Source: Lachnospiraceae bacterium
GTDB taxonomy: Bacteria > Bacillota > Clostridia > Lachnospirales > Lachnospiraceae
Reading direction: 5' to 3'
Length of the DNA stretch: 64,000 nucleotides
NCBI GenBank assembly: GCA_024694055.1
Contig: JAILKC010000052.1
Coordinates: 1 to 64,000, forward strand
Part shown: positions 40,808 through 61,667 of the stretch, in pieces
Layout of the letters: every line of letters starts with the position of its first letter
Numbering within the stretch: position 1 is the first letter of the stretch
Translations under genes and position numbers: made by a program
The notes under the pieces: model-generated
Seen by the model: the letters and a program-made list of their open reading frames with translations, nothing else
What the model was told of the DNA's origin: nothing
Databases searched by the model: none

Positions 40808-42568
40808 ATGTCACTTATGGGAAGCCTGTATATAGGCGTGTCGGGTCTTCAGACCTCTCAGAATGCACTTAATACAACTGCACATAACATATCTAATAAC
40901 GACACTACCGGTTATGTACGTCAGCAGATACTTCAGAGCGATTCATCTTATGACACCATTAAGCATAACGTTCATGCTGTGTCCAAACAGCAGGTAGGTC
41001 TCGGTGTCGTATATTCCAAGACAAGACAGGTACGTGACGTCTTTTTGGACGCCACTTATAGAAGAGAGTCGGGCAGAAGCGCCTTTTATGAGGTGTCTGC
41101 AGATGCACTCGGCGAAGTAGAGAATCTTTTGGACGAGATGAACGGTGAGACTTTCCAGGAATCCATCCACGACCTTTGGCTTGCTGTACAGGAGATGTCC
41201 AAGGATCCCGGAAGTGCTGTTACGCAGGGACTCTTTGTGGAGAGATGTTCGGAATTTTTGGCAAGAAGCCAGTCGGTATATGAAGGCTTATGTGATTATC
41301 AGGACAGCCTTAACCAGACCGTTAAGAAGAATGTTACCCGCATCAATGAGATCGCGGAGCAGATAAAGGTCTTAAATGACCAGATCAGAAATATAGAGAT
41401 ATCCAATACCAATGAGCATGGAATGTCATTTGAGAAAGCCAATGACTTAAGAGATACACGTAACGCTCTTTTGGATGAACTTGCAACATACGGCAATATA
41501 CAATATGAAGAAGATATGGACTGTACCGTATGGGTACAGCTCGAGGGTGAAGACCTCGTCAGAGGTGAGATAGCATACAAGATCCTTTTGTACGAGGCGC
41601 CGGATACCGGATTCTACACACCTTTCTGGGAGAAAAATGCAAGACCTTCGGTTGATAATGAGGGCAACAGATACTATACCGAAGAAGAAGCCAATAAAGG
41701 CAGAGTGTTTGATCTGTCAAGGGTGATCTCTTCCGATCTTAATACTGATATAGGTGCACTCAAGTCTTCGCTTTTGGCAAGAGGCGATCACAGAGCCAAT
41801 TACACGGATCTTTTGGCTGACAGATATGATTATGAGATATCACAGTCGGTATGTATGAATGTAATGGCTGAGTTTGATCAGCTCGTACACGGTATCGCCA
41901 CAGCCATCAATGACGTGATAGCACAGGCTGCATACGACGCCAAGGCGATCAACCCGTCGAGCACATATCTGATGGATGACAATGGCAATCCCATCCAGGT
42001 ATTTCTGAAAGTAGCTTCCGACGGATACGACAATACGGGCGTGCATGAATGGGATTCTACAGAAGGACATGCAGCCAATTATAATATAGAACATACCGGT
42101 ACTTATAATGTAGCTACCGGCAAGGTAGATGATTATCAGGCAGAATCACTGTATACATGTACCAATATGCAGATCAATATGGATCTCTTGAGACAGCCTA
42201 CCAAGCTTGGCTTTGTCAAGATAGACGGGCAGGTGGATTTCGCCACGATGGAGAAACTCAAAGAGAAATTCACTTCTGAAGACATGGCGCTTAACCCCAA
42301 TGTCAAGAAGAAGTCCTCTTTCGTGGATTACTACGGAGATCTGGTGAGCCAGGTAGCCAATTCCGGTTCGATATACAACAGTATCATCGACAGCCAGGAC
42401 AAGACAGTTACAGCTACATCCAATGCAAGAGAGCAGATCATAGGCGTCTCACAGGATGAAGAACTTACTTTCATGATCAGATTCCAGAATGCATATAATG
42501 CATCTTCAAGATATATCAATGTAGTGGATGATATGTTGGAGCACATTATCAATACACTTGCGATGTAA
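40808..42568 (+). CDS. flgK: Flagellar hook-associated protein FlgK (copy 1)
   Basis: YIGVSGLQTSQNALNTTAHNISNNDTTGYVRQQ; C-terminal FQNAYNASSRYINVVDDMLEHIINTL. Confidence 0.93.
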   Translation: MSLMGSLYIGVSGLQTSQNALNTTAHNISNNDTTGYVRQQILQSDSSYDTIKHNVHAVSKQQVGLGVVYSKTRQVRDVFLDATYRRESGRSAFYEVSADALGEVENLLDEMNGETFQESIHDLWLAVQEMSKDPGSAVTQGLFVERCSEFLARSQSVYEGLCDYQDSLNQTVKKNVTRINEIAEQIKVLNDQIRNIEISNTNEHGMSFEKANDLRDTRNALLDELATYGNIQYEEDMDCTVWVQLEGEDLVRGEIAYKILLYEAPDTGFYTPFWEKNARPSVDNEGNRYYTEEEANKGRVFDLSRVISSDLNTDIGALKSSLLARGDHRANYTDLLADRYDYEISQSVCMNVMAEFDQLVHGIATAINDVIAQAAYDAKAINPSSTYLMDDNGNPIQVFLKVASDGYDNTGVHEWDSTEGHAANYNIEHTGTYNVATGKVDDYQAESLYTCTNMQINMDLLRQPTKLGFVKIDGQVDFATMEKLKEKFTSEDMALNPNVKKKSSFVDYYGDLVSQVANSGSIYNSIIDSQDKTVTATSNAREQIIGVSQDEELTFMIRFQNAYNASSRYINVVDDMLEHIINTLAM

Positions 42569-42583
42569 GGGAGGTTTTTGCTT

Positions 42584-44668
42584 ATGCCGTCACAATTTTT
42601 CGGACTTAATACAGCATATAAGGGACTGCTCAATGCCAATGCAGGCCTTAATACAACCGCCAATAACATATCGAATCTTGAGACCGAGGGCTACAGCCGC
42701 CAGGCTATTCACTCCGAAGCTGCCGAGGCTTTGAGAGTATTTACGACTTACGGATGTGCCGGCGCCGGCGTGGACACTCTTTCGATCGAACGTATTCATG
42801 ATGAGTTCTACGACAGTAAATACTGGTCCAACAACAACAAGACCGGCCAGTATGAGATGAAAGATTATTATATGAAGCAGATAGAGGATTATTTTAAGGA
42901 TGATTCCACTATCGAAGGCTTCACTACCACATTCAACAAGATGATGACTGCTCTGGCAGAAGTTAAGAAGAATCCGGCCAATATCTCTACCAAGGCTCAG
43001 TTCGTGGGATTTGCAGACAACCTCTGTGAGTACTTTAACTCAATGGCCGGCAGTATGGAACAGGTACAGAAGGACGTCAATTCCGAGATTAAGTTAAAAG
43101 TGGATGAGATCAACTCCTTGGCCAGTGAGATCGCTACTATCAATAAGCAGATCAATGTCATAGAGTTAAGCGGCGGAACTGCCAATGAACTTCGAGACAA
43201 GAGAACTCTTTTGGTGGATCAGCTTTCTTCCGTAGTAAGTATAGAAGCCAAAGAATATGCGGTTGTGGATACCAATGATCCCGAGAGACTTACGGGAAGC
43301 CACATGTACGTGATCAAGATCGCCGGAGGACAGACTCTGGTGGATACCGATTCATACAACACTCTTGAGTGTCTTGCCAGAAGGAACGATCAGAAGCAGA
43401 ACCAGTCTGATATAGACGGCCTTTACGATGTGTATTGGGTTTCATCCGGAGATCACGCAGCATTTGAGAGATTCAATGAAAAGCGTATAAGCGAAGGCAA
43501 GGAAGAGGTTACATGGAACGATTACGTTAGAAATAAGTGCTCTGAATTCAGCCTTTACAATGCGGCCTTGGGTGGTCAGCTTCAGGGTCTCATACAGATG
43601 AGAGACGGTAATAATTCCGAGAACTTCAAAGGCACTGTAGCAGCTCCTTACGGTGAGGATCCCATCGACAGCATCACCGGCACCAATGCCAACGGAGACA
43701 CGATCAGAAAAGTGACCGTCAAAGCATCGGCAGACTATCTTGCGGATCTTGATAAATGTACATTGTCTGATTCGGGCGGACTCATCACACTGGCCAACCA
43801 GAAATTTTACTATGATGACTGGACCTTCAGATGTGACATGTCGTCAGGTACGGCTGAATACTATTATGATTTCTACATAAATGAGACAAAGACCGTGACA
43901 TTTAATGGAGATGGCAGCGTCTCAGAGACACAGGTCCTTTCAAGCCTTAAAGGAAAAGAAGTTGAGATAGGTACAGGAATCAAATATCAGGGTGTTCCTT
44001 ATTATCAGCAGCAGTTAAATGAGTGGTGTCGTATATTTGCCGGATCATTTAACGATATTCTTACAAGCGGATATACATCCGAAGGCGAAGGCGGAGTAGA
44101 GATGTTTGTCGGCAACAAGGAGACGGAGGATGATCAGTATCTCTTCCGCACCAGATACGGCAAATACATCATGGATGCTGATGGTAATCCGATAAGCTCC
44201 AATGTGCAGGCTGACGGAAGTTACACGATATCCATGACGGATGACAGCTTCTACAGACTTAAGGCAGGCAATCTCGATATCCTCGGCGCTTTGCAGGAGG
44301 ATCCCGGTAAGCTCGCCACCAAGTCGGATTCGTCAGCAGGATCCGATCAGTACGATATAGTAGGCAGGCTTATAGAGATGACCACCAATAAGAACGTGGC
44401 ATCCTACAGAGGAGCGGCCACTCAGGAATTCCTCACCTGTGTACTTTCGGATGTGGCACTTAATGCCAAGAATGCATCGACGTTCTATAAGAACTATTCC
44501 AACATAGGACAGAACATAGATAATCAGAGAATATCCATCTCGGGTGTGGATACGGATGATGAAGCGGTCAATCTGTTGAAGTATCAGAACGCATATACAC
44601 TGGCATCCAAGATGATACAGACACTTACGGAAGTATACGACAGACTTATACTTCAGACAGGCGTCTGA
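42584..44668 (+). CDS. flgK: Flagellar hook-associated protein FlgK (copy 2)
   Basis: FFGLNTAYKGLLNANAGLNTTANNISNLETEGYSRQ; C-terminal KYQNAYTLASKMIQTLTEVYDRLI; ATG 42584 after gggagg. Confidence 0.9.
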   Translation: MPSQFFGLNTAYKGLLNANAGLNTTANNISNLETEGYSRQAIHSEAAEALRVFTTYGCAGAGVDTLSIERIHDEFYDSKYWSNNNKTGQYEMKDYYMKQIEDYFKDDSTIEGFTTTFNKMMTALAEVKKNPANISTKAQFVGFADNLCEYFNSMAGSMEQVQKDVNSEIKLKVDEINSLASEIATINKQINVIELSGGTANELRDKRTLLVDQLSSVVSIEAKEYAVVDTNDPERLTGSHMYVIKIAGGQTLVDTDSYNTLECLARRNDQKQNQSDIDGLYDVYWVSSGDHAAFERFNEKRISEGKEEVTWNDYVRNKCSEFSLYNAALGGQLQGLIQMRDGNNSENFKGTVAAPYGEDPIDSITGTNANGDTIRKVTVKASADYLADLDKCTLSDSGGLITLANQKFYYDDWTFRCDMSSGTAEYYYDFYINETKTVTFNGDGSVSETQVLSSLKGKEVEIGTGIKYQGVPYYQQQLNEWCRIFAGSFNDILTSGYTSEGEGGVEMFVGNKETEDDQYLFRTRYGKYIMDADGNPISSNVQADGSYTISMTDDSFYRLKAGNLDILGALQEDPGKLATKSDSSAGSDQYDIVGRLIEMTTNKNVASYRGAATQEFLTCVLSDVALNAKNASTFYKNYSNIGQNIDNQRISISGVDTDDEAVNLLKYQNAYTLASKMIQTLTEVYDRLILQTGV

Positions 44669-44679
44669 TAATATAAGTG

Positions 44680-44751
44680 GTTTCAGAGGGCTCACAGCAT
44701 CGGCTGTTTGACTGAAGCGCCGGTATTCCTCCGATTCGCTGATGTGAATCG
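44680..44751 (+). ncRNA. Candidate structured intercistronic RNA element, copy A (flgK2-flgL)
   Basis: P1 GTTTCAG/CTGAAGC; conserved GGCTCACAGCA..GGCTGTTT with ACAGC/GCTGT hairpin; P3 CGATTCGC-TGAT-GTGAATCG; second copy at 61552. Confidence 0.6.
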
Positions 44752-47149: not shown

Positions 47150-47599
47150 ATGAAAGTTACTACAAGAGTATTTGGGGATATTGACATCGAAGATGAGAAG
47201 ATCATACATTTTCAGGGCGGTATAGTAGGCTTTCCGGATTTGACGGATTTTGCACTTATTCACGATGCAGAGAAGGATGGAGATTCTCCCATCAGATGGA
47301 TGCAGTCACTTCAGGAGCCCAATTTTGCGATGCCCGTTATGGATCCCCTTGCAGTATGCCCGGATTACAATCCCGTGGTAGAGGACGAACTTTTAAGACC
47401 CATCGGTGAGATACATCCCGATTCGGTACTTGTGCTTGTTACGCTCACGGTGCCCAAGAATATCAAGGAGATGTCAGTGAATCTCCAGGCACCTTTTGTA
47501 ATAAATGCCGATGAGAAGAAGGCATGCCAGATAATAGTGGATTCTGATAAGTATCCCGTACGTTTCCCTATATACGATATTATTAAGAAGGAGGACTAG
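47150..47599 (+). CDS. fliW: Flagellar assembly factor FliW
   Basis: FQGGIVGFPDLTDFALI...IRWMQSLQEPNFAMPVMDP. Confidence 0.93.
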   Translation: MKVTTRVFGDIDIEDEKIIHFQGGIVGFPDLTDFALIHDAEKDGDSPIRWMQSLQEPNFAMPVMDPLAVCPDYNPVVEDELLRPIGEIHPDSVLVLVTLTVPKNIKEMSVNLQAPFVINADEKKACQIIVDSDKYPVRFPIYDIIKKED

Positions 47600-60719: not shown

Positions 60720-60900
60720 GTCGTTCGGGTTAAACCCGTATGATGAGCCGAAGACAGCAGGTAGGATACCTTATGGCTATCCTCTAACGAGTTCGCCTGC
60801 CGAGGAATGAAGAGAACGTTTTACGAGATATGATTCGCTTTGATTCCTTCTGTCTTATGGCAGGAGGTTTTTTCGTAGGAAGATATACCATCCTCATTCG
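60720..60900 (+). ncRNA. Ribosomal protein L10 leader (attenuator-type leader of rplJL)
   Basis: ccgaagacagcaggtag...cgcctgccgaggaatgaagagaacg followed by ccttctgtc-ttat-ggcaggagg-tttttt attenuator, upstream of rplJ. Confidence 0.85.
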
Positions 60901-60925: not shown

Positions 60926-61540
60926 ATGGCAAAGGTTGAGATTAAGAAGCCTATCGTAGAAGAGATCAGCGCTGCTATTAAGGATGCTCAGTCAGTGGTC
61001 CTTGTTGATTACCGCGGACTTACAGTTGAGCAGGACACCAAGCTTCGTAAAGAGCTTCGTGAGGCAGGCATCAACTACAAGGTGTACAAGAACACAATGA
61101 TGAATTTTGCGTTCAAGGGTACTGACTTCGAGTCATTGCTTCCTTATCTTGAGGGACCCAGCGCAGTAGCAATTTCATCTTCAGATGCTACAGCTCCCGC
61201 AAGAGTACTCGCAAAGTTCGCTAAGACAGCTGAAAATCTTGAGATCAAAGCCGGTGTGGTAGAAGGAACACTTTATGATGCAAATGGCATGAAGTCAATC
61301 GCTTCAATTCCTTCACGTGAAGAGTTGCTGTCCAAGTTGCTTGGAAGCATTCAGTCACCTATCACCAACTTTGCTCGCGTCATGAATCAGTTGGCTGAAA
61401 AAGGCGGAGCAGGAGAAGCGGTAGCAGCAGCACCTGCAAAAGAGGCCGAGGCTACAGAGGCAGCACCCGCTGCTGAGGCAGAGGCACCCGCAGCTGAGGA
61501 AGCACCTGCTGCAGAAGCAGAAGCACCCGCAGCAGAATAA
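60926..61540 (+). CDS. rplJ: 50S ribosomal protein L10 with Ala/Glu/Pro-rich C-terminal tail
   Basis: VVLVDYRGLTVEQDTKLRKELREAGINYKVYKNTMMNFA. Confidence 0.97.
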   Translation: MAKVEIKKPIVEEISAAIKDAQSVVLVDYRGLTVEQDTKLRKELREAGINYKVYKNTMMNFAFKGTDFESLLPYLEGPSAVAISSSDATAPARVLAKFAKTAENLEIKAGVVEGTLYDANGMKSIASIPSREELLSKLLGSIQSPITNFARVMNQLAEKGGAGEAVAAAPAKEAEATEAAPAAEAEAPAAEEAPAAEAEAPAAE

Positions 61541-61551
61541 AAGGTTGAAGA

Positions 61552-61627
61552 ACTTACAACGGCTCACAGCAAAGGCTGTTTCGCCGGTAAGTACCAGTCA
61601 ACCCTCCGTTTTGCAAGGGCGAAACGG
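61552..61627 (+). ncRNA. Candidate structured intercistronic RNA element, copy B (rplJ-rplL)
   Basis: P1 ACTTAC/GTAAGT; conserved GGCTCACAGCA..GGCTGTTT; P3 CCGTTTTGC-AAGG-GCGAAACGG; homologous to copy at 44680. Confidence 0.62.
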
Positions 61628-61667
61628 CAGATTGTTTGAATCGTAGAATTTGAAAGGAGTCATTATC

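Follow-up and report, generated by a model that had tools for sequence, protein, structure and literature searches.

Repetitive extragenic palindromes (REPs) of the GTAG type are reported to lie close to the 3' ends of upstream genes and at variable distances from downstream open reading frames (ORFs), and often to supply the TAG stop codon of the upstream gene (PMC3733652). Bacterial miniature inverted-repeat transposable elements (MITEs) and the ERIC/RU repeats are non-autonomous, structured, intergenic sequences of about 100 bp, also present in multiple copies. Structured RNAs of a different kind occur around the genes for ribosomal proteins L10 and L7/L12, among them the L10 leader (RF00557) and the candidate motifs HMP2_254 and HMP2_2105, reported upstream of L7/L12 from Treponema and Collinsella (PMC8040213). 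Here we describe an element that occurs twice in a 64,000-nt stretch of contig JAILKC010000052.1 of Lachnospiraceae bacterium (the window; its genome is labelled G000 in our comparisons), once between flgK2 and flgL (copy A) and once between rplJ and rplL (copy B). We give a probability of about 0.62 to the reading that copies A and B are members of a dispersed family of non-autonomous, palindromic REP/MITE-like repeats of Lachnospiraceae, transcribed as intercistronic hairpins. The copies are probably mobile spacers and not dedicated switches for the next gene.

The element resembles the GTAG REPs in being a multi-copy palindrome dispersed through intergenic space; many copies also have a TAG at the 5' foot, which often provides the stop codon of the preceding gene. 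It differs from them in size, being a bulged hairpin of ~60 nt plus a second hairpin where a REP has 20–40 bp; in its fixed loops and variable stems; in its nearly constant sense orientation; in having no associated RAYT (REP-associated tyrosine transposase); and in occurring in Lachnospiraceae, a family unmentioned in the survey text of PMC3733652. Because the link to RAYTs fails, the element is REP-like but not a REP. It shares its length, structure, intergenic location and copy number with bacterial MITEs and ERIC/RU repeats, and like a MITE it is a non-autonomous insertion with empty sites in relatives, as the rplJ-rplL alleles illustrate. Unlike these repeats, it has no target-site duplication at the one site examined, and no parental insertion sequence was found in a search confined to Y1 transposases. 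Ribosomal protein leaders are also structured elements of the rplJ-rplL region, but ours is not tied to ribosomal protein genes, and the true L10 leader, the known regulator of that operon, lies upstream of rplJ (window 60730-60883, + strand; RF00557, 55.8 bits, above gathering). Nor does the element show the conserved tie to one gene or pathway of a gene-specific cis-regulatory RNA: its hosts are many and unrelated, and most congeners lack it next to rplL and flgL. Integron attC sites are folded, follow stop codons, belong to integrase-linked cassette arrays and carry GTTRRRY/RYYYAAC boxes; the core-operon hosts and stem sequences seen here, judged by eye only, do not suggest such a site.

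A structured repeat family in Lachnospiraceae

The two gaps have in common an 18-base core, GGCTCACAGC-NNN-GGCTGTTT (44689-44709 in copy A; 61561-61581, an exact match, in copy B), set within a bulged hairpin that is followed by a second hairpin, P4. With up to three mismatches allowed, the core pattern matches the window twice against 0.02 matches expected, and 0 of 100 shuffles reached two. Its specified bases led to additional copies in four congeneric species, and a structure-blind MAFFT alignment of 11 copies formed the basis of the covariation count and of a covariance model, R1. In this alignment the unit runs inward from an outer stem (P0) through an internal loop (AA / UAA-like), P1, a short P2 (usually GGC/GCC) and a fixed internal loop (TC / TTC) to P3 with its 4-base loop. 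Two-sided changes are found in 17 of the 22 stem pairs, and 90% of cells pair, a result matched by 0 of 500 shuffles and compared with ~40% in slid controls. Pairing has been kept through hundreds of two-sided changes, with the loop bases fixed. The first-pass annotation of the window, which had described a shared core and architecture in both copies, was correct on this point, and covariance-model searches recovered many further homologues from other Lachnospiraceae. These homologues, the covariation and the lack of an Rfam match agree with the checks that the annotation had set for a structured element. Its count of two copies holds within the window; genome-wide there are at least four. A third genomic match to CACAGCNNNGGCTGT (C57) was rejected, as it sits in a repetitive, coding-like stretch without the element.

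P4 was present at the expected position in 91 of 129 copies, compared with 19 of 645 shuffled flanks. Its stems are near perfectly paired and highly varied (67 distinct stems in the 91 copies), and it brings the whole unit to roughly 90–100 bp. Units from other genera approximate TAG-TGTGAGAAG-ACTTCT-...-GCTCGCAGCAAAGGCTGCTTCGC-...-AGAAGT-CTAAGTCTCACAC, followed by a hairpin like GGAGAATGCC...GGCATTCTCC. Extra hairpins occur at fixed bulge positions in some copies (L050, L080, L085 and L104); in the first of these (L050:1493-1612) an insertion of ~58 nt with extra hairpins occupies the P3 loop and the remaining element is intact. Arrays of short, GAGGCGAAACGAAC-like repeats, apparently derived from the P4 arm, lie downstream of the element at two loci (L005 and L036). 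No Rfam family matched the element above its gathering cut-off, permissive thresholds yielded chance matches only, and the open-access literature (subscription journals lay outside the search) held no Lachnospiraceae intergenic repeat of this kind; the family is apparently undescribed.

Distribution is patchy. Model R1 gave 32 matches in 7 of 20 genomes of the genus, and a pattern scan of one genome per species returned at least 118 stretches, nearly all of them, among the matches listed, from Lachnospiraceae. Two draws of family genomes contained 13 carriers in 298 and 15 in 397, about 4% of the sampled family, and an order-wide draw contained 16 carriers in 393, every match falling in the same family (the number of sampled genomes from outside the family is not shown). 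Per-genome counts in the wide searches, in which few candidates were scored, are lower bounds; when more were scored, G310 had 33 copies, G325 21, G337 19 and G162 14. Eight of the G310 copies, at different sites, score identically under the model, and seven, among the matches listed, have an identical core with differing sites and flanks, which is the pattern that recent dispersal would leave. A pattern scan of viral contigs gave five matches, one with a clear copy (L170:9688-9737, - strand, 47.9 bits; IMG/VR), possibly in a prophage of a Lachnospiraceae host.

Placement behind stop codons

Neighbouring genes were called by a simple ORF procedure, individual rows of which may be wrong, and gene names beyond those supported by Pfam or Rfam were read by eye from translations. 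The upstream gene was co-stranded with the element in 106 of the 119 copies for which both neighbours were called, and between co-directional genes 86 copies were sense and 3 antisense. At most 12 nt separate the start of the element from the upstream stop codon in 77 of 106 cases, where uniform placement predicts ~37; the excess also holds for copies followed by a convergent gene (15 of 20, with 6.5 expected). TAG is the stop codon of 34 of 79 adjacent genes (background, 152 of 702), and it stands at the foot of the element in 63 of 129 copies against a 5% background; the preceding base varies, and the tag is not a fixed GTAG. The spacing to the downstream gene ranges widely, and in 20 of 106 cases that gene is convergent. 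The constant feature across copies is the end of the upstream gene, not the downstream gene.

The genes that copies follow are many and unrelated. Hosts include rplJ-rplL, nusG-rplK, rpsH-rplF, groEL, and tRNA and tmRNA loci; three species have the element next to the 3' end of tRNA-Asn, and four (L042, L039, L047 and L048) have antisense copies that abut tmRNA at its mature 5' end. These last copies apparently lie between the tmRNA promoter and the 5' end, where their reverse complement would form a tmRNA leader. Copies also lie beside a cobalamin riboswitch-like stretch in three species (L035, with two tandem copies, L033 and L038); an Rfam match was confirmed only at the G004 locus.

Full, empty and recurrent sites

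In G010 and G003, the rplJ stop codon is followed directly by the intergenic sequence (TAA, then TTGTTTAT...TTTGAAAGGAG). In G000, the sequence AAGGTTG...AAACGGCAGA stands between TAA and TTGTTTGAATCG...TTTGAAAGGAG, and copy B thus looks like a clean 91-bp insertion immediately behind the stop. No target-site duplication is evident at this single full/empty site. Among 18 congeners the rplJ-rplL gap holds an intact element in three (G000, G004 and G005, the latter two diverged) and a remnant without the inner hairpin in G007; the others have none. The flgK-flgL gap has a copy in G000 only among 15 congeners. In the gap upstream of an oadA-like gene in G003 (L026), a full element stands with a 3'-half remnant that resembles the element of the same gap in G005; the arrangement reads as re-insertion at an occupied site.

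Beyond the genus, two more genera have copies in the flgK-flgL gap, one represented by G162 and the other by G578 and G588; the other 20 of 23 carriers searched have none there. Because these copies resemble the unit type of their own genomes, they are probably independent insertions. G003, G010 and G310 each have a copy at the 3' end of a FliK-like gene. Recurrent sites of this kind may reflect either an insertion hotspot or selection.

The two copies in the window

Table 1. Element copies and upstream host genes in the window.
Feature	Position	Strand	Basis
Copy A, degenerate member (core hairpin and second hairpin P4), flgK2-flgL gap	44669-44751	+	Direct reading, fold, second-best match of model R3
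Copy A P0, weak outer stem	AATAT 44670-44674 / GTATT 44723-44727	+	
Copy A P1, enclosing core GGCTCACAGCATCGGCTGTTT (44689-44709)	44680-44718 (GTTTCAG 44680-44686 / CTGAAGC 44712-44718)	+	Direct reading
Copy A P3 (inner hairpin)	ACAGC 44694-44698 / GCTGT 44703-44707	+	Direct reading
Copy A P4 hairpin, CGATTCGC-TGAT-GTGAATCG	44732-44751 (arms 44732-44739 and 44744-44751)	+	Direct reading; present in centroid fold
Copy B, full 91-bp element, rplJ-rplL	61541-61631	+	Full/empty comparison with G010 and G003; cmsearch 61542-61604, E 8e-14, model R3
Copy B core: P0 GGTTGA 61543-61548 / TCAACC 61598-61603, P1 ACTTAC/GTAAGT, P2 CGGC/GCCG, P3 ACAGC/GCTGT	61543-61603	+	Fold and alignment
Copy B P4 hairpin, CCGTTTTGC-AAGG-GCGAAACGG	61606-61627	+	Fold
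Upstream host of copy A: FlgK paralogue, stop TGA 44666-44668	42578-44668	+	Pfam FlgK_D1, Flg_bbr_C
Upstream host of copy B: rplJ (ribosomal protein L10), stop TAA 61538-61540	60926-61540	+	Pfam Ribosomal_L10

The coordinates of the two copies are collected in Table 1. The stems that had been drawn in copy A by the first-pass annotation (P1, the inner hairpin and the last hairpin) were all found where it had placed them. Its observation that both copies begin exactly 11 nt behind the upstream stop codon is correct as arithmetic for the distance to P1, which starts at 44680 and 61552, but not for the start of the element, because that space is filled by the outer stem P0 and an internal loop that had been missed; both copies begin 0–1 nt past the stop. 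Copy B has conserved internal-loop bases in the alignment, and its fold is far better than those of shuffled sequences (z -5.36). The fold of copy A alone is not significant (z -1.24, with 24 of 200 shuffles as good); its minimum-energy structure differs from the proposed one, the stems of which appear in its centroid, and it has no GGC/GCC stem (P2). Model R3, built without the copies of this genome, ranked it second best in the window at E 0.095. Copy A is not credible alone, but is credible as a degenerate member of the family.

The downstream genes encode FlgL with a flagellin domain (copy A, where the Shine–Dalgarno sequence AAGGAG comes after P4) and L7/L12 (copy B). Two adjacent flgK paralogues (586 and 696 aa; window 40808-44668) precede flgL, and fliW lies downstream (47150-47599).

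Discussion

On the reading that we prefer, a dispersed REP/MITE-like repeat, the element would enter, or be retained, in sense orientation directly behind a stop codon and, more rarely, where a tRNA or tmRNA gene ends. It may spread as DNA through a recombinase or transposase that recognises the folded hairpin. Once in place, it would be transcribed between genes, where, in the manner of a REP hairpin, it could shield the upstream mRNA or divide it into segments, or could slow the terminating ribosome; any effects on the downstream gene would be incidental. Several observations weigh against this reading. Genes for Y1/RAYT transposases, the only transposases searched, do not track the element, and no copy lies within ~1.5 kb of one; an association with them was rejected, with PF01797 absent from several carriers (G325, G337, G096 and G212) and no copy near any match. 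The orientation bias exceeds what would be expected of an intergenic element acting purely at the DNA level and fits a constraint on RNA, and the pairing kept at shared sites is more suggestive of a structure under selection than of inert inserts in decay. Use of the flgK-flgL gap in two further genera exceeds random insertion, for which we estimate ~0.1 such recurrences from ~150 copies and ~1,800 gene ends. A mobile element with true stop-codon targeting would insert in sense at gene ends (stop codons, tRNA 3' ends and the tmRNA 5' end), repeatedly at the same sites in different genera, and would afterwards be retained as a functional RNA where translation stops, a scenario that we regard as distinctly unlikely.

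RNA stems tolerate G-U pairs; G-U should therefore outnumber A-C, and tRNA stems from the same loci contain 20 G-U and 1 A-C in 192 cells. In the element both are rare and G-U is not in surplus: one alignment has 24 G-U and 25 A-C cells, another has 20 and 18, and the genus copies, which form a subset of the latter, have 10 and 15. The test is weakened by shared ancestry, as 18 of the 25 A-C cells in one set come from a single subfamily column, which again tells against our reading, and a mild G-U excess elsewhere in the stems is possible. Alignments A3 and A4, unlike A2, were fitted to the model, which biases their pair counts in its favour. Among copies at shared sites in different species, 91 pair comparisons are two-sided and still paired, as against 7 one-sided G-U types. 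Taken together, the pair statistics favour constraint or mutation acting on DNA hairpins over classic compensatory evolution of an RNA, whereas the orientation bias suggests the opposite, either a target with a direction of its own (the stop codon) or a cost, at the RNA level, of lying in reverse. Covariation might be mainly mutational, with template switching during replication repeatedly perfecting one arm of a DNA hairpin from the other without selection on RNA. The scarcity of one-sided intermediates, the parity of G-U and A-C, and the near-perfect yet varied P4 stems suit this explanation, which is compatible with a mobile repeat, but we consider it somewhat doubtful. Some constraint besides template switching acts, because the asymmetric internal loops have not been perfected and are conserved across genera.

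A functional mRNA hairpin, kept by selection behind stop codons in busy operons, could instead act on termination, 3'-end stability or segment processing, its copies being recruited and not merely tolerated. Covariation far above shuffles and slid controls, fixed loops (TCA/TTTC) amid changing stems, sense orientation next to stop codons, stem pairing preserved where several species share a site, the recurrence of copies at flgK-flgL in three genera and the hosts listed above all argue for it. Patchy presence with many empty orthologous sites, the lack of a G-U surplus, the antisense copies beside tmRNA and the deletion of most of the rplL copy in G007 argue against it, and we judge it unlikely, slightly more so than template switching. 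Far less probable is the proposal of the first-pass annotation, an RNA that acts in cis to raise or protect expression of the gene behind it, the one of higher stoichiometry (rplL or flgL), or that binds a regulator. In its favour, the window has two copies that precede genes of this sort, rplL copies occur in three species, and the element frequently ends ahead of the next Shine–Dalgarno sequence. The proposal does not fit the variable downstream distances, the convergent downstream genes or the lack of the element at rplL and flgL in most relatives, and a dedicated L10 leader is already present upstream of rplJ.

Strong covariation in an operon context is thus no proof of a dedicated cis-regulatory RNA, as a dispersed palindromic repeat can give the same signature. 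The hosts of this family are abundant gut bacteria in which apparently no REP-like family had been described before. If its placement at stop codons reflects real targeting, the family would make it practicable to study how an element can move through operons and leave their genes intact.
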